5,100 nt of DNA, taken from assembly GCA_002727695.1 (NCBI GenBank), contig PBXT01000109.1:1-5100 (forward strand). The letters run 5' to 3'. The notes under the pieces are model-generated. The model was not told the origin of the DNA. It ran no database searches and worked only from the letters and a program-made list of their open reading frames with translations. The position numbers and the translations under genes were made by a program. Below, one piece after another: positions 1 through 5,100 of the stretch. Origin of the DNA: Methanobacteriota archaeon (lineage in GTDB: Archaea > Thermoplasmatota > Poseidoniia > Poseidoniales > Poseidoniaceae). Positions within the stretch are counted from its first letter, which is position 1, and every line of letters begins with the position of its first letter.

Positions 1-1
1 A

Positions 2-394
2 GAAAGGAAATACAATTTCGGAATCAAGGTAACATTGGTTCATGGCGATATTACCGACCATCTAGATTGGCTATATGTCGAGGATGCAAGTTTAATTCTG
101 AGAGGAGAATTACTGAGCGATTGTCTGTCAAAATGGTGCTGGCTTCAATCCAAAGCGGTAGATTTGCAACCTAAATGGGATAAAAATCCGATTTCGAAAT
201 TGAAGTGGTCCGGTCAAGATTCAACTCCAAATCTGACTTTGGAGTTGTTGAAATTGTCAAACTCTCCAACAGTCGCCACAGTTGTTCATGGAAATGCGAC
301 ACTGAAGGAATTGAAAAAACAGTTGAGGAATTATTCCGGAGATGTTGAACATCTCATAATATTCCACAAAGATGCAGAGGACTACAGAGATTAG
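2..394 (+). CDS. Hypothetical protein, C-terminal part (5' end off window)
   Basis: I do not recognise this protein. The frame is open from the window edge to the TAG stop (392-394). A TTG at 35 could serve as a start, but sensible residues (E-R-K-Y-N-F-G-I-K-V-T) precede it with no stop and there is no clear ribosome binding site before it, so the gene probably begins upstream and this is its last 130 residues. The visible part looks soluble. A hydrophobic strand followed by HGDITD (GIKVTLVHGDITD) suggests a beta-strand/loop edge of an alpha/beta fold. A second strand with a similar V-V-H-G-N turn occurs about 80 residues later, followed by a lysine-rich helix (LKELKKQLR) and a last strand (EHLIIFHKD). 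Three tryptophans and two cysteines cluster in the middle. It is convergent with the dehydrogenase gene, overlapping it by four bases. That it is real coding sequence is fairly sure; its function is open. Confidence 0.6.
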   Translation, partial: ERKYNFGIKVTLVHGDITDHLDWLYVEDASLILRGELLSDCLSKWCWLQSKAVDLQPKWDKNPISKLKWSGQDSTPNLTLELLKLSNSPTVATVVHGNATLKELKKQLRNYSGDVEHLIIFHKDAEDYRD

Positions 395-1275
395 GGAAGT
401 TCGGTTTCTTCAGCAGAACCTGATGACCAGTCATAGATTCCTTTACCGGACTTCTTGCCTAAGCGTCCTTCTGCGATCAACTTCTCAAGGAGTGGATGAG
501 GTGTGTATGAATCATCGTTGAATGATTTCTTCAGATTCAATAGAATGTCTCTGCGGACATCTAGGCCGACGAGGTCAGTAAGGGCGAGTGGCCCCATCGG
601 ATGCTTGTATCCCAAGACCATCGCAGTATCGATGTCTTTGGCGCTGGCAACTCCATCTGCAAGCATGCGAATCGCTTCATTGCCGAGAACTACGCCGAGC
701 CTAGATGTTGCAAACCCTGGAACATCCTTGACTAGAATCGTGGTCTTGCCCATCGCTTCGCCTGCAGCTGTAGCCGCTTGAATTGTCTCTTCAGAGCATG
801 AGTCATGCTTGATTAGTTCAAGCAATTTCATGATTGGTACCGGATTGAAGAAATGCATTCCAATGACTTTCTCTGGCCTACCTGATGCAGCAGCAATATC
901 TGCGATTGATAGGGAAGAAGTGTTTGTACCTAGGATGCAATCATCCTTTGTCATAGAACCAAGATCTGCGAATATTTTGTGCTTCAAATCTGGGATTTCA
1001 GGAACAGCCTCGATTACTAAGTCAGCATCTTTTACCGCTTCATGCATGTCTGATACAGCATGCAAATTTGCTGCCCATGCTGTCTTTTGTTCAGCAGTAG
1101 TTTTTCCTCTAGCTATACCCTTGTCCCAAAACGCATCAATGGTATTCATTCCACGTTCTAGTCCTTCGGGAAATGCATCATACAGGTTGGTGTGCCAACC
1201 TGCTTGTGCACATACTTGAGCAATACCTGCTCCCATAGTTCCAGCGCCAATTACTGCTACAGAACTGATTCCCAT
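391..1275 (-). CDS. hbd: 3-hydroxyacyl-CoA dehydrogenase (3-hydroxybutyryl-CoA dehydrogenase / PaaH type)
   Basis: Oxidises an L-3-hydroxyacyl-CoA to the 3-oxoacyl-CoA with NAD+ (reversible), a cytosolic beta-oxidation-type step. The 294 residues match the usual length of a stand-alone enzyme. Residues 1-180 form the Rossmann domain with GAGTMG at 10-15; the rest is the helical C-terminal domain with HPMGPL at 225-230, LVGLD at 235-239 and GRLGKKSGKGIYDW at 270-283. Against the human enzyme's catalytic set (Ser137, His158, Glu170, Asn208, numbering from memory) I read Ser120, His141 (HFFNPV) and Glu153, but Ser191 (PGFATSR) where human has Asn. The TSR variant also occurs in other prokaryotic homologues, so I expect an active enzyme. 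The ATG at 1275 is placed so that the glycine motif begins at residue 10; no good Shine-Dalgarno precedes it. It lies 24 bases after the transporter and is the last gene of the oxygenase operon. Chain length of the substrate cannot be read from sequence. Confidence 0.93.
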   Translation of the reverse strand: MGISSVAVIGAGTMGAGIAQVCAQAGWHTNLYDAFPEGLERGMNTIDAFWDKGIARGKTTAEQKTAWAANLHAVSDMHEAVKDADLVIEAVPEIPDLKHKIFADLGSMTKDDCILGTNTSSLSIADIAAASGRPEKVIGMHFFNPVPIMKLLELIKHDSCSEETIQAATAAGEAMGKTTILVKDVPGFATSRLGVVLGNEAIRMLADGVASAKDIDTAMVLGYKHPMGPLALTDLVGLDVRRDILLNLKKSFNDDSYTPHPLLEKLIAEGRLGKKSGKGIYDWSSGSAEETELP

Positions 1276-1299
1276 GTTAACATCCGATGGGATTTAGGT

Positions 1300-2196
1300 T
1301 CATGACGGTTCCTTGGATTGAGCAAGATATACTCCGCCTACAATCAGAATAAATGAAGCTAATAGTGAGAATCCTAGTTTCTCATCAAGCAATAGCCAAC
1401 CACTAAAGATTCCGAATATTGGAACCAAGTAAACATACATTGCGGACCTACCTGCGCCAATGATTTTGATTCCATCTGCAAACCAAACATAGCTCAATAC
1501 AGTGGAGAAAATCGCCAAGAATGCCAACCATGCCCACGCATCTATGCCAGCATCTAACGGGAATCCAACCTGTGAGTATTCCCAAATTACTGCAGGGGTT
1601 TGAATCAGTAATCCGACTGCACTAGACCATACGGTTAGGTGGAGTGGAGATAGCGCATTCTCACCACTCATCGCTTTCTTCATCAGTATGGTTGTACAAG
1701 CCCATGAAAGTGCAGACATAGCGATTAATGCATCTCCTAGTAATCTTTCATTCACGGGTAAATCGACATTAGGAGAATACCATGCAATCACTATAACGCC
1801 GCAAACGGCAGAGAGTAGTCCTAGGCCCAGCCGCTTGTCGAATTTCTCGCCTAGGAACGGCACGGCAAGAATTGCAGTGAATAATGGGTTGAATGTGATC
1901 ATTAGAGACGCGTCACCCGCGGCAGTCCATTTCATGCCGTACATGAAGAAGGCTTGATACAAAAAGGTGGAAAGAAATCCTATTGCAGTGATTATTTTCC
2001 ATTGGTCTCTAGATGGTGTAACCCATTGTTTTGTTGCAAATAAGAACAGGAAAAAACATCCTACTGCAAGGATATATCTTGCCCAACCTGCCGTGAAAGG
2101 TGGAATGTCTCGTGCTGCTACTCTGCCAGCTACCCAGCCTAGGCCCCAAATGAATGCAACCGCCAATAATTTGGCATGGGTTGATGCATTTTTCAT
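1300..2196 (-). CDS. EamA/DMT-superfamily membrane transporter
   Basis: An integral membrane protein of the drug/metabolite transporter superfamily, 298 residues, the usual length for two EamA repeats. Ten hydrophobic segments can be placed at roughly residues 9-27, 33-54, 67-88, 93-115, 123-140, 151-173, 183-204, 218-239, 248-270 and 275-292. The two repeats show the family signature at equivalent places: FLGEK at 114-118 and LLLDEK at 268-273, each after the fourth helix of its half. There is no soluble domain or cleavable signal peptide. The ATG at 2196 overlaps the stop of the 177-residue gene (TGATG on the minus strand), and a Shine-Dalgarno-like GGAG (2205-2208) lies 8 bases before it inside that gene, so translation is probably coupled. 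Family members move amino acids, nucleotides, organic acids or drugs; the substrate is not predictable here. Its place in the operon makes an organic acid or pathway intermediate a possible cargo, which is inference. Confidence 0.9.
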   Translation of the reverse strand: MKNASTHAKLLAVAFIWGLGWVAGRVAARDIPPFTAGWARYILAVGCFFLFLFATKQWVTPSRDQWKIITAIGFLSTFLYQAFFMYGMKWTAAGDASLMITFNPLFTAILAVPFLGEKFDKRLGLGLLSAVCGVIVIAWYSPNVDLPVNERLLGDALIAMSALSWACTTILMKKAMSGENALSPLHLTVWSSAVGLLIQTPAVIWEYSQVGFPLDAGIDAWAWLAFLAIFSTVLSYVWFADGIKIIGAGRSAMYVYLVPIFGIFSGWLLLDEKLGFSLLASFILIVGGVYLAQSKEPS

Positions 2197-2729
2197 CAGA
2201 ATCGCTCCAAGCCGAGTTGCAGAATACGGGCTCTAGGTAGCCCGATTTCCGGCATTCCTTCGGCTGGTGCGTGGAGTTTTAGTCCTTCCAGTCGCTGAAC
2301 ATACAGTCCATACGATGCAATATCTCCAGGTAAGAAAGGTGTAGGAAGTCCCAGTTTTTCTAGACCTGCACATGCTTTTTCGCTGTATATCGGATAGACA
2401 TTAGTTTCAAAATGCATCCATGTCGAAACTCTGCAGCAGTCTACGTTCTCAAGAGTGAGAAGGTGCTCTAGCAATCCAACATCAGGGTACTTGATTGTTT
2501 GAATCGCCATGTTGACTTCCATTACAACATCTTCAGGCCAAGCGAATGGGGTATTGTTGGCCCATGAATCAGCTAATTCGATGTGTTCAATTACATCGTC
2601 ACCTGTTACTGCGAACAATGTTTCCTGATACGGCCTATCTTCATAGGCATCGCTAACAAGACCTGGTAAAACCGAGTAGAAGCGTTCTAATTCCGCTTCG
2701 TCGGCTCCGTAGAGCGAGACGGGGATCAA
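2196..2729 (-). CDS. Uncharacterised 177-residue protein coupled to the diiron oxygenase
   Basis: I do not recognise this family. The 177 residues are soluble-looking, acidic in the first half, with no signal peptide or membrane segment. The first half reads as mixed strand and helix (VVMEVNMAIQTIK at 68-80, then LLEHLLTLENV). A compact middle holds a cysteine pair (Cys98-Cys99) followed by TWMHFETN (103-110), in which His106 and Glu108 could bind a metal, though nothing proves it. A third cysteine is at 120. The C-terminal third is rich in Pro, Gly and Leu. The start is a TTG at 2727-2729, chosen because a strong Shine-Dalgarno lies just before it and the next in-frame Met is near residue 70. 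It begins 9 bases after the oxygenase and shares one base with the transporter ATG, so it is an operon member. An accessory, coupling or binding role for the oxygenase is conceivable but is context inference only; it does not resemble BoxA, PaaB, PaaC or PaaD. Confidence 0.8.
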   Translation of the reverse strand: MIPVSLYGADEAELERFYSVLPGLVSDAYEDRPYQETLFAVTGDDVIEHIELADSWANNTPFAWPEDVVMEVNMAIQTIKYPDVGLLEHLLTLENVDCCRVSTWMHFETNVYPIYSEKACAGLEKLGLPTPFLPGDIASYGLYVQRLEGLKLHAPAEGMPEIGLPRARILQLGLERF

Positions 2730-2733
2730 TTTC

Positions 2734-2740
2734 TCACCTC
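2734..2740 (-). promoter_or_regulatory. Strong Shine-Dalgarno fixing a TTG start
   Basis: On the minus strand GAGGTGA is a seven-base match to the anti-Shine-Dalgarno core (AGGAGGTGAT complementarity). It ends four bases before the TTG start at 2729. Its first two bases are part of the TGA stop of the oxygenase gene, so ribosomes finishing that gene stop on top of the next gene's binding site. It is the clearest ribosome binding site in the window and supports an unusual start codon in an operon-internal gene. Confidence 0.75.
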
Positions 2741-3902
2741 AAGCAGTAGCGCCGATTCCACTAGCGAGTTGACGAGGAGTCAATGGTTTGTCCTCAATCC
2801 ACTGTTGCTTGAAAATCTCTTTCAGTGCTTCTTCATCTTCTGGAGTTGGAAGTACAGTCTTCAGGTATTCTGCATACTCTTCGTCAGTTCCTTCGAACAG
2901 TTCACCGTTGGTGTAGCAGTTCTTTCCGCCAAAGTCTCCGATGTCTCTGTGGAAGTTTTCGTGAGGTACGTATAGAGTTACCCCACAGTCTTCTGGAAGG
3001 TATCCGTTGAGTTTCTCGACTTCCCTGACAATCTCATCGTGGTAGTGTCCACGGCTTTCTTCGTTGAGAACTTCTTTGTCGACGTCGATTTCGCCTTCGA
3101 GTTTCTTACGCTCGTCCCAGCGTCCCTTTACTCCCCAGACATATGCCCAGTGAGCAGAGGTGGATGAATCGGTACCGAACAGGTCGTGTGCAGTTGCAAC
3201 CCACTTGTTCATGTAGCGCTGTAGCATGTCCAATGGAATGACTCCAGCCTTGATGATTCTTCGCAGTCCATTTGAACCAGTTCCCAGATGGAACGACTCT
3301 TCTTTGAGCATAGGTCCCATGGATGCAGCCAGTGGCTTGAATGCAGAGGTGGATAGCATTCCAAGTTGGAACTTACCATCTCTGTCCACGAACATTGTGT
3401 AGCAGAAGAAATCCAACCAATGTGGCATTGGTCGGTTGAACGCACCAAGTAGACGGTCTCCGTCCTGGGCATTACGCTCTAGCAATTTCTGAGCCTCTCT
3501 TCGTCCTTGCTGTCCAAAGTAAGTCATCAATAGGTAAGCCATCTGCCATCCGTGACGCTGTTCTTCAGCCATGATACGTGCTGCTGCATAGCGGTCATAG
3601 TCGGTTGGAGCGCTAGCCAAAAGGTGGCGCTGCTGTTCTACAGATGCGAATTCAGTGTCACCTTGTACGGTGATCATTGCTACTAATGAGTCACGAATGT
3701 TTTGGTGGGGCACTTGTAGTGCTCTTTCCCACTTCGCTCTTCCAGCGTAGTCTCCGAATTCAATTACATCGCCAGCGCGGTCCCAATCAAATAGAATTGA
3801 AAGGTCAAAATCGCCCAACCATTCTCTATCGAAACCTACTCTGTCTTGCCATTCGCCAAAGTTGGCGACCCAGTCTTCCCATGTCTTAGGTAGTTCTGCC
3901 AT
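2739..3902 (-). CDS. BoxB/PaaA-family diiron oxygenase (benzoyl-CoA 2,3-epoxidase subunit B-like)
   Basis: A ferritin-like diiron enzyme of the phenylacetyl-CoA/benzoyl-CoA epoxidase family; known members use O2 and electrons from a reductase to epoxidise the ring of an aryl-CoA in the cytosol. The 387 residues hold the complete metal site: Glu84 (GDTE), Glu114 and His117 (AEEQRH), Asp173 (FVDRDGKFQL), Glu202 and His205 (KEESFH). Distances between these residues equal those I recall for BoxB (E120, E150, H153, D211, E240, H243). Stretches such as GDTEFASVEQQRHL (81-94), the DRDGKFQL block, LKGRxxE-like VKGRWDERK (258-266) and VPHENFHRDIGDFG (312-325) are far closer to BoxB than to PaaA. It is shorter than BoxB (about 470) at both ends and in the linker, so substrate may differ. 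The ATG at 3902 has no Shine-Dalgarno but a well-placed TATA-like box. It leads a four-gene operon. No BoxA or BoxC is in the window. Family is sure; substrate is not. Confidence 0.9.
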   Translation of the reverse strand: MAELPKTWEDWVANFGEWQDRVGFDREWLGDFDLSILFDWDRAGDVIEFGDYAGRAKWERALQVPHQNIRDSLVAMITVQGDTEFASVEQQRHLLASAPTDYDRYAAARIMAEEQRHGWQMAYLLMTYFGQQGRREAQKLLERNAQDGDRLLGAFNRPMPHWLDFFCYTMFVDRDGKFQLGMLSTSAFKPLAASMGPMLKEESFHLGTGSNGLRRIIKAGVIPLDMLQRYMNKWVATAHDLFGTDSSTSAHWAYVWGVKGRWDERKKLEGEIDVDKEVLNEESRGHYHDEIVREVEKLNGYLPEDCGVTLYVPHENFHRDIGDFGGKNCYTNGELFEGTDEEYAEYLKTVLPTPEDEEALKEIFKQQWIEDKPLTPRQLASGIGATA

Positions 3903-3923
3903 ATTACGGGGATAGGGTTCCTA

Positions 3924-3941
3924 CTATTCATTAATTTGCGA
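3924..3941 (-). promoter_or_regulatory. Putative archaeal promoter (BRE/TATA-like) for the oxygenase operon
   Basis: In the 59-base gap before the oxygenase the minus strand carries CGCAAATTAATGAATAG, an AT-rich box centred near 3931 with a purine-containing flank that could bind TFB. The centre lies about 29 bases before the ATG at 3902. With the usual archaeal TATA-to-start distance of 26-27 bases, transcription would begin within a few bases of the ATG, giving a leaderless mRNA; this agrees with the absence of a Shine-Dalgarno there. The box is not a perfect TTTATATA consensus, so this is a positional prediction. Confidence 0.5.
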
Positions 3942-3963
3942 ACATGTTCGTGCGAACATGTTC
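3937..3963. promoter_or_regulatory. Twin perfect palindromes, probable operator
   Basis: The 13-base sequence TGCGAACATGTTC occurs twice in direct order, at 3937-3949 and 3951-3963, with one base between (14-base period). Within each copy GAACATGTTC is a perfect 10-base palindrome (3940-3949 and 3954-3963); the first extends to 12 bases (CGAACATGTTCG, 3939-3950). Palindromes of this size suit a dimeric helix-turn-helix protein, and two copies suggest paired dimers. They lie immediately upstream of the TATA-like box of the oxygenase operon, a position where archaeal activators, or repressors blocking TFB/TBP, bind. The distal copy includes the first two bases of the regulator's stop codon as read on the plus strand (3962-3963). 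Because each unit is self-complementary, the two copies can also fold as a 10-base-pair hairpin with a GTGC loop, but no T-run follows on either strand, so an operator is favoured over a terminator. Confidence 0.7.
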
Positions 3964-4585
3964 AGGGTGAGTTGCGACGTACCTCGTCGGCGAAGGAATT
4001 GAGCACAACTCCCTCTATCTTGTGTAAGTGTACAGAAAGCGTCGATTTACTCAACCCAAGTAATTCAGCTAGAGCGCTCAGTGTTATTCTGCGCGGAGTA
4101 TCCCAGTACCCTTCATTCAATGCGGAATCGAAAATTATCCTCTGCTTTGGTGTTAACATTCTCGACCCGGTAGAACGGGTTGAGACAACGCGATAGGGTA
4201 CTCTACCATCACGAAGTAATTGTACTAACTCACGGCTTTTTTCTGCCGAGCATTCAATAGTCCAGTCAACCCATCCATCTCTTACTTCAAACGGTGACTG
4301 AGGAATAACTCCAACCTCTGTTATCTCTTTGATGTAGCCTCCACCTTTCGGGGCGATGTCTACTTCGTATCTATTGCCGCCAAGGTCTCTGACCTCTTCG
4401 ATACCAGAATGAGACTCTAATTCATTTGTCAATTCATTAGAGGATGAGAGTTTTGCAGTTCCTCTTCCTCTTGCCAGAGGCATAGTCTCCTCAATTCGTA
4501 AAACCGCTTCAGGGCGTTGTCGCGAAACATCTCCAGACCAATGCCCTTCAGGCAATCGAACCTCGATACGTAACTGGTTCACCAT
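3962..4585 (-). CDS. HTH_10 (bacterio-opsin activator-like) transcriptional regulator
   Basis: A predicted DNA-binding protein of 207 residues. Residues 144-196 are an HTH_10 domain: LTPKQR at 144-149, then EGYWDTPRRITL (158-169), then the helix-turn-helix ALAELLGLSKSTLSVHLHKIE, with the recognition helix around 179-190. The first 140 residues have no PAS, GAF or receiver motif that I can see; they look like a mixed alpha/beta domain with a glycine turn (PKGGGY, 79-84) and the strand VDWTIEC (106-112), similar in layout to the N-terminal module of small haloarchaeal HTH_10 proteins, where it is presumed to sense a signal. The ATG at 4585 comes four bases after the glpX stop with no strong Shine-Dalgarno, so it is probably co-transcribed with glpX. 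A GTG at codon 2 is an alternative start. Its gene ends inside the twin palindromes controlling the next operon; it is the obvious candidate to bind them, which is inference. Confidence 0.87.
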   Translation of the reverse strand: MVNQLRIEVRLPEGHWSGDVSRQRPEAVLRIEETMPLARGRGTAKLSSSNELTNELESHSGIEEVRDLGGNRYEVDIAPKGGGYIKEITEVGVIPQSPFEVRDGWVDWTIECSAEKSRELVQLLRDGRVPYRVVSTRSTGSRMLTPKQRIIFDSALNEGYWDTPRRITLSALAELLGLSKSTLSVHLHKIEGVVLNSFADEVRRNSP

Positions 4586-4589
4586 GTTA

Positions 4590-5100
4590 TCACAAAGAAT
4601 GAGTGCGGTCGTGGCGAGTAACTTCGCCAGTCTTTACATCGATCAACTCTGCAAATGTCTGAACGCTATCTTGGCCAACGACTACTCCTGGCAAGTATCC
4701 GTCACAAACTCCGGATGCCGCAAAGATAGCATCATCAGAACGACACAGGTCAGTTGCATCCCACAATCTTGTAAGGTCATCATCAACCATCTTCTCAGCA
4801 CGCTTTTCTTCTTCATCAGAACGGAAGACTAGTCGACCTTCGAATACGCCTCCAATACCACGAATTGCAGCTGCTGTGATTACTCCTTCCGGAGCGGCAC
4901 CAATGCCCAAAAGCATGTCATAGGGTCCATCTGGGCGAGCAGCCCATATTGCTGCTGAGACATCACCATCGCCCATCAAGTGTAGTTGTGCTCCAGCCTC
5001 TCTGATTTCTTTGAATAACTCGGAATGTCTTTCTCTATCCAATGCAACTACCTTCACTTCTGAAATCGGTTTGTCTAAGACATCTGCAGCCTGTTCGAGG
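4590..5100 (-). CDS. glpX: Fructose-1,6-bisphosphatase class II (GlpX), C-terminal half
   Basis: Hydrolyses fructose 1,6-bisphosphate to fructose 6-phosphate in gluconeogenesis, a metal-dependent cytosolic enzyme of the lithium-sensitive phosphatase fold. The frame is open to the right edge; the GTG at 5057 is an internal valine, since family-like sequence (LEQAADVLDKPISE) precedes it. About 169 residues are visible, roughly the second half of a protein usually near 320-340. Recognisable blocks are VVALDRERH, the substrate/metal loop GDGDVSAAI, GIGAAPEGV (normally GIGGAPEG), the GRL element after it, and RSDDAIFAASGVCDGYLPGV, which matches GlpX of bacteria and leads to a strand-rich end. One glycine of the GIGGAPEG loop is alanine, a mild change that need not affect activity. 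The stop at 4590 is four bases before the regulator's ATG. The gluconeogenic role has no direct link to the oxygenase operon apart from reassimilating carbon. Confidence 0.92.
   Translation of the reverse strand, partial: LEQAADVLDKPISEVKVVALDRERHSELFKEIREAGAQLHLMGDGDVSAAIWAARPDGPYDMLLGIGAAPEGVITAAAIRGIGGVFEGRLVFRSDEEEKRAEKMVDDDLTRLWDATDLCRSDDAIFAASGVCDGYLPGVVVGQDSVQTFAELIDVKTGEVTRHDRTHSL

Follow-up and report, generated by a model that had tools for sequence, protein, structure and literature searches.

A conserved palindrome upstream of an oxygenase operon in Poseidoniales as a candidate operator of the neighbouring HTH_10 regulator

In a 5,100-nucleotide (nt) stretch of a Poseidoniaceae (Marine Group II) genome (GenBank assembly GCA_002727695.1, contig PBXT01000109.1, positions 1 to 5,100; called the window below), two copies of a palindrome stand between a gene for a helix-turn-helix (HTH) regulator of the HTH_10 family and a presumed operon that starts with a BoxB/PaaA-like oxygenase gene. 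Poseidoniales are abundant, uncultured archaea of the surface ocean. The named proteins and loci most similar to those of the window belong to Candidatus Poseidoniaceae, Poseidoniales or Euryarchaeota archaea. Comparison with related sequences indicates that the oxygenase-proximal copy is a real, strongly selected and promoter-specific candidate operator and the functional core of the pair. The first-pass annotation had read the palindromes as a candidate HTH_10 operator; sequence comparison supports this interpretation, with the proximal copy as the core. On the whole, we consider it fairly likely that the neighbouring HTH_10 protein uses the proximal palindrome as its operator and that this is an activator site.

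Conservation and position of the palindrome

In the window, the sequence TGCGAACATGTTC occurs at 3937-3949 and again at 3951-3963, with a one-base gap and a period of 14, and each copy contains the perfect 10-base-pair (bp) palindrome GAACATGTTC (3940-3949 and 3954-3963). The first copy extends to the 12-bp palindrome CGAACATGTTCG (3939-3950), and the second overlaps the stop codon of the regulator gene (3962-3964). This gapped repeat with a perfect palindrome in each copy, as it was originally described, is exact in the sequence. In 2000 first-order Markov sequences generated from the window, two identical 10-bp palindromes at most 40 nt apart never occurred. A plain count of matches with up to two mismatches showed no excess in the window (4 found, 3.0 expected).

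As relatives we took the best 80 of 271 Poseidoniales. The comparison set of 76 loci comprises 75 of these and the window, after removal of L008, L019, L075 and L080, which hold no upstream DNA, and of L063, which has masked bases. Of the 76 loci, 68 have the exact proximal GAACATGTTC, seven have it with one substitution and one has it shifted by a base. Its start lies 47 nt ahead of the oxygenase ATG in 75 loci and 1 nt away from this position in the remaining one, while the gap between the regulator stop codon and the ATG ranges between 44 and 63 nt (75 loci). This fixed offset from the ATG at a varying gap suggests that the position of the site is tied to the oxygenase promoter rather than to the regulator gene. 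Mapped on a nucleotide tree of the oxygenase, the columns at -48..-37 underwent a mean of 1.17 parsimony changes. The corresponding means are 11.0 for the columns of the distal copy (-62..-51), 24.7 for 66 fourfold-degenerate sites (minimum 8) and, near this fourfold rate, 21.9 for columns -19..-2.

The distal copy is exact in 12 of the 76 loci, has at most two mismatches in 53 and at least three in 23. A near-invariant proximal copy beside an often degenerate distal one argues for one universal operator with an optional second copy. The description of the two as twins holds for the window, where they are identical; across relatives they are unequal, and only the oxygenase-proximal copy is universal.

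A draw of 145 genomes from the order gave the same picture. It includes 54 oxygenase genomes of the Poseidoniaceae clade, not counting G051 and G147, in which the oxygenase is partial. The site is present with at most one change in 51 of 51 of these genomes, G127 and G145 (contig ends) and G029 (probably masked) being outside the count. Fifteen of the 54 do not contain CGAACATGTTCGYAWA; 12 of these are readable, and they have either the exact 10-mer (six genomes) or the 10-mer with one change (six genomes). Conservation of the palindrome in relatives with the gene pair, which had been proposed as a check on the site, was thus observed both in the 76 loci and in the Poseidoniaceae clade of this draw.

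We also asked how often the 12-mer occurs elsewhere, using 27 genomes, those of 28 loci less L028. CGAACATGTTCG is present in 25 of these genomes and exactly once in 20; the control, the same pattern read backwards, matched in one of the 27. G020 and G026, the two genomes without CGAACATGTTCG, have CGAATATGTTCG at the same place. Many random copies, which had been named as a possible objection, were not found: all seven extra copies could be placed, five inside open reading frames, one at a contig edge and one before a tandem paralogue of the regulator (G009/L013). Among the 145 genomes of the order, CGAACATGTTCGYAWA occurs in 41, and in 39 of them it lies at the oxygenase start by coordinates. 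In G117 it follows the regulator near a contig end, and in G041 it lies elsewhere.

The neighbouring regulator as candidate binder

An HTH_10 gene stands directly upstream of the oxygenase and on the same strand in all 76 of the 80 loci that hold upstream DNA. Among the other 77 oxygenase genomes of the draw, 60 loci were compared, and 50 of these have no adjacent regulator, in the sense that no match to the regulator profile lies within the stretch compared (1.7 kb or less). All 50 have at least three mismatches to GAACATGTTC at its place. The regulator-less genomes G049 and G111/G154 nest among regulator-bearing lineages, which argues that the joint absence of regulator and site is not merely the result of one deep split. 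Between one and five HTH_10 matches were found per genome in 25 of the 27 genomes searched, and the single match in G016 adjoins the site. In L013 (2042-2771), a tandem, divergent HTH_10 paralogue precedes the oxygenase regulator, and the exact 12-mer, together with two degenerate copies, stands in front of this paralogue as well. G135 has a detached regulator with no palindrome after it.

Together, the fixed ATG offset, the slowly changing columns, the linkage in 76 of 76 loci and the near-unique 12-mer make the regulator the candidate binder, as do the missing site in all 50 regulator-less loci, the copy before the L013 paralogue and a dyad in a second HTH_10 family (see below). On these comparative grounds it is very likely that the HTH_10 protein encoded upstream binds CGAACATGTTCG.

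The protein matches HTH_10 (PF04967) at residues 144-193 with 56.2 bits (cut-off 23.1), and PF04967 is matched by 22 of 22 members of the set compared (E-value up to 1). In the structural model (mean predicted local distance difference test score, pLDDT, 87.9), two beta-alpha-beta-beta-alpha-beta halves precede a LuxR/NarL-like HTH. Among the 13 families listed for the window's protein at E up to 1 there is no PAS, GAF or BAT domain. For the 22 members, the matches listed (25 of 40 families) include no PAS or GAF domain, and PF15915 BAT appears in two members with a best E of 0.043. With no such sensor domain found before its HTH, the window's protein does not fit the Bat type of HTH_10 regulators.

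Direction of control and rival explanations

Passages in PMC4158304 and PMC6737238 place the sites of archaeal activators upstream of the transcription factor B recognition element (BRE) and TATA box and those of repressors downstream, and a passage in PMC5937170 describes how TFB-RF1 recruits TFB at weak BREs. The dyad described here lies directly upstream of the BRE/TATA at a fixed distance, as archaeal upstream activator sites do, with BRE and TATA assigned by position and consensus. Because the site occupies the place of archaeal activator sites, activation is the likely outcome, provided that the regulator binds; this judgement rests on position. A regulator dimer, presumably the binding form, would sit on CGAACATGTTCG directly upstream of the oxygenase BRE/TATA and recruit or stabilise TBP/TFB, upon which the oxygenase operon would be transcribed, probably as a leaderless mRNA. 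The N-terminal domain of the regulator would receive the signal, perhaps a small metabolite if control is by ligand. The distal copy, one 14-bp period further out, may offer an optional second dimer site in some lineages, and the regulator would act on essentially one promoter per genome.

Elements resembling TATA were scored against a TATA consensus. The mean score is 4.94 in the palindrome clade (n = 76) and 6.62 in the regulator-less loci (n = 50), and a TATA string at -38..-21 is found in 20 of the 76 and 28 of the 50 loci, respectively. As an argument for activation the weak TATA carries little weight: it does not separate the clade from other Poseidoniaceae gene starts and gives minor support at best. 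As a separate observation, 11 of the 50 regulator-less loci (L205, L206, L207, L209, L211, L212, L213, L219, L224, L227 and L231) have the core-promoter string CGTTTGATATACC at about -36..-24 in common.

Several observations weigh against an activator site read by the neighbouring regulator. The ten regulator-bearing loci outside the clade have a TATA-like score of 6.32, near the regulator-less value; other Poseidoniaceae gene starts, the positions of which are uncertain, are as weak as those of the clade (4.48, n = 186; 4.91, n = 50); and the backgrounds of the score differ (3.48 vs 4.51). The link between regulator and site is partly confounded with phylogeny. Among the ten loci that have the regulator but lie outside the clade, L191 alone has a complete dyad, and this is a different one (CCGAATAGGTTCGG); L189, L190 and L193 have half-sites, and the other six are without a similar site, L194 and L196 holding unrelated short inverted repeats. 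In one of the 50 regulator-less loci, CGAAN4TTCG with a single mismatch lies close to where the site would be. No change in the recognition helix accompanied the GAATATGTTC variants, as judged by a crude match to the string KST that picked several wrong segments and from which we draw no support. Finally, the site and the BRE-like element have one base in common, which would also allow repression.

The same regulator and operator could indeed work as a repressor, with the dimer beside the BRE blocking TFB until a metabolite of the pathway releases it. The base that ends the site and belongs to the BRE-like element as well, the rigid spacing, and the retention of the oxygenase with a better TATA-like element in regulator-less relatives, as if constitutive expression were tolerated, are all consistent with this mechanism. 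The site nevertheless lies upstream of the BRE/TATA and not over it, where characterised archaeal activators sit, and loci with the exact site have the weaker TATA-like element, an argument limited by the equally weak other gene starts. We therefore regard repression as rather unlikely. It is improbable that a different DNA-binding protein uses the site and that the HTH_10 gene stands beside it by an accident of gene order in the operon. Each genome surely encodes further regulators besides its one to five HTH_10 matches, but another binder would not readily account for the missing site in all 50 loci without an adjacent regulator, for the exact copy before the tandem paralogue in L013 or for the comparable unit of regulator, dyad and target in a second HTH_10 family.

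An RNA element at the regulator stop codon, in which the inverted copies form a hairpin that serves as terminator, attenuator or mRNA-stability element, would fit the predicted folding of the minus-strand RNA, which includes an 11-bp hairpin (-16.7 kcal/mol and z -3.74 for the whole 73-nt fold). Such a hairpin needs both copies, however, and the distal one is lost in 23 of 76 loci in which the proximal one stays. Moreover, no intrinsic terminator (GC-rich stem-loop followed by a T run) was found at 3850-4000, and the position is fixed to the oxygenase ATG and not to the regulator stop. We set this reading aside as very improbable. Even less credible is that the palindrome is nothing but an extended core promoter or a product of local mutation bias. 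The adjoining BRE/TATA columns are conserved too, which would suit this reading. Against it, 20 of 27 genomes have no second copy of the 12-mer besides their one, the oxygenase promoters of regulator-less relatives lack it, and columns -19..-2 change at nearly the rate of the fourfold-degenerate sites.

Related systems and genomic setting

Bat, the bacterio-opsin activator, is of the HTH_10 type and the namesake of this group. According to passages of PMC3184054, Bat of Halobacterium salinarum contains GAF and PAS/PAC domains and acts together with Brz and Brb; its activation of bop may run through an upstream activator sequence. The window's regulator has only the HTH in common with it, Bat's GAF and PAS/PAC domains being unmatched, and the window's palindrome belongs to one neighbouring gene. 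Other comparable regulators include Ptr2 and TK0271, which belong to DNA-binding families other than HTH_10. Where they activate, TrmBL1/Tgr, Ptr2, TFB-RF1 and TK0271 have sites directly upstream of the BRE/TATA, as here, according to passages of PMC4158304 and PMC6737238. TrmBL1/Tgr activate and repress several genes (a passage in PMC4158304), unlike the regulator considered here, whose 12-mer has just one copy in 20 of 27 genomes. Local archaeal regulators with a dyad upstream of BRE/TATA are a known kind of system, to which this one belongs; the site gives a poorly defined family, in an uncultured group, a candidate operator that can be tested.

In the part of the open-licence literature that was covered we found no HTH_10 operator outside haloarchaea, which is compatible with the earlier remark that few are known; nor did we find, in open-licence literature, a paper on regulation in Poseidoniales or Marine Group II. 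HTH_10 recognition outside haloarchaea becomes testable in vitro with a near-invariant 12-bp site, a probable binder and a probable single target to work from. The relatives that have neither regulator nor site provide a comparison for gain or loss of regulator dependence in archaeal promoters.

The 63 HTH_10 loci fall into several families, and in most of these the regulator gene is directly followed by a characteristic neighbour (Pfam assignments cover the targets of five loci). In family 1 the neighbour is an RCC1-repeat protein (by Pfam on one locus, L137). With target starts set by the conserved N-terminus, the centre of a CCTATCATGATAGG-like dyad lies 42-45 nt ahead of the target ATG in all ten loci with an RCC1-type target (L137-L139, L144-L146, L148, L157, L248 and L249), always after the regulator stop. 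This geometry is similar to that of the oxygenase site, which is centred 42 nt before its ATG. The dyad has one to three mismatches per locus to CCTATCATGATAGG, a consensus read from the same ten loci, and lies between 0 and 20 nt from the regulator stop, depending on the locus. Family 1 has 17 members in all; outside the ten are six without an RCC1-type target and L143, in which the target is cut off and the exact 14-mer CCTATCATGATAGG stands before the regulator start. With this second dyad family as a counterpart, the assignment of bases to the residues that read them could be tested in a pair of systems.

Families 0 (DeoC-type aldolase), 2 (PCMT) and 4 (TGT) also lie directly upstream of a likely target. 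The dyad comparison covered families 0, 1 and 2, family 4 having two members only. By eye, families 0 and 2 have no such dyad at -42 and instead a conserved block at the BRE/TATA position, so that they do not confirm a dyad rule. We tentatively propose that HTH_10 proteins of Poseidoniaceae form one-regulator, one-target units with the regulator gene directly upstream. In two families or more, the dyad would have no gap and be centred 42-45 nt upstream of a start codon that is probably leaderless; the families would have CATG at the centre in common and differ in the flanks (GAA-CATG-TTC vs CTAT-CATG-ATAG). If true, an archaeal regulator family with few defined operators would have a specificity code of natural origin. 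The family upstream of the aldolase gene comprises 18 loci and L258 (L141, L142, L147, L149, L150, L154, L158, L246, L247, L250, L252, L255, L257-L262 and L272, not counting neighbours of L261 outside this family), with DeoC assigned by Pfam for L142 and L147; it often has a CCTTGT/CCTTGA block at about the BRE/TATA position.

The features of the window are collected in Table 1. On the minus strand the order is glpX end, HTH_10 regulator, palindrome gap, oxygenase, 177-aa protein, EamA transporter and 3-hydroxyacyl-CoA dehydrogenase, and the 59-nt gap between regulator and oxygenase holds both palindromes. GCAAAT is presumably a BRE, as assigned from its position and the BRE consensus.

Table 1. 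Features of the window (positions in nt; aa, amino acids)
Feature	Position	Strand	Remarks
Candidate proximal operator, 12-bp palindrome CGAACATGTTCG	3939..3950	-	-48..-37 from oxygenase ATG; putative functional core
Distal copy GAACATGTTC	3954..3963	-	centre 14 bp upstream of proximal centre; auxiliary
BRE-like element GCAAAT	3934..3939	-	-37..-32; one base common with proximal palindrome; column conservation
TATA-like element TAATGAAT, weak	3926..3933	-	-31..-24; in register with GGTATAAG and GCAATAAG of relatives
HTH_10 regulator, 207 aa	3962..4585	-	two predicted beta-alpha-beta-beta-alpha-beta halves (~1-140) and NarL/LuxR-like HTH (~141-205)
BoxB/PaaA-like oxygenase homologue, 387 aa	2739..3902	-	presumed target; probably leaderless
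Second gene of presumed operon, 177 aa	2196..2729	-	no Pfam or NCBIfam match
3-Hydroxyacyl-CoA dehydrogenase	391..1275	-	presumed same pathway as oxygenase
glpX end	4590-5099	-	

The window's oxygenase is homologous to BoxB (benzoyl-CoA 2,3-epoxidase) and PaaA and matches PDB 3per at E 2.5e-60, but with 229.7 bits it stays far below the cut-off of TIGR03225, the model of BoxB equivalogs (499.1 bits). The oxygenase is present in 131 and the regulator in 67 of the 145 genomes of the draw (both at E up to 1e-20). In L301, a gene for 189 aa, similar in size to that of the 177-aa protein, follows the oxygenase. Both L301 and L304 encode a downstream protein with the same type of N-terminal sequence as the window's 3-hydroxyacyl-CoA dehydrogenase, and in L304 the oxygenase also follows a gene resembling enoyl-CoA hydratase (both by eye).

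Because the TATA-like element lies 24-31 nt before the ATG, the oxygenase mRNA is probably leaderless. The base at -1 of this ATG (3903 in the window) is C in 93% of the 76 loci, with freely varying flanking bases, and is possibly the transcription-start signal of the leaderless mRNA; the window itself, with T at 3903, is an exception.
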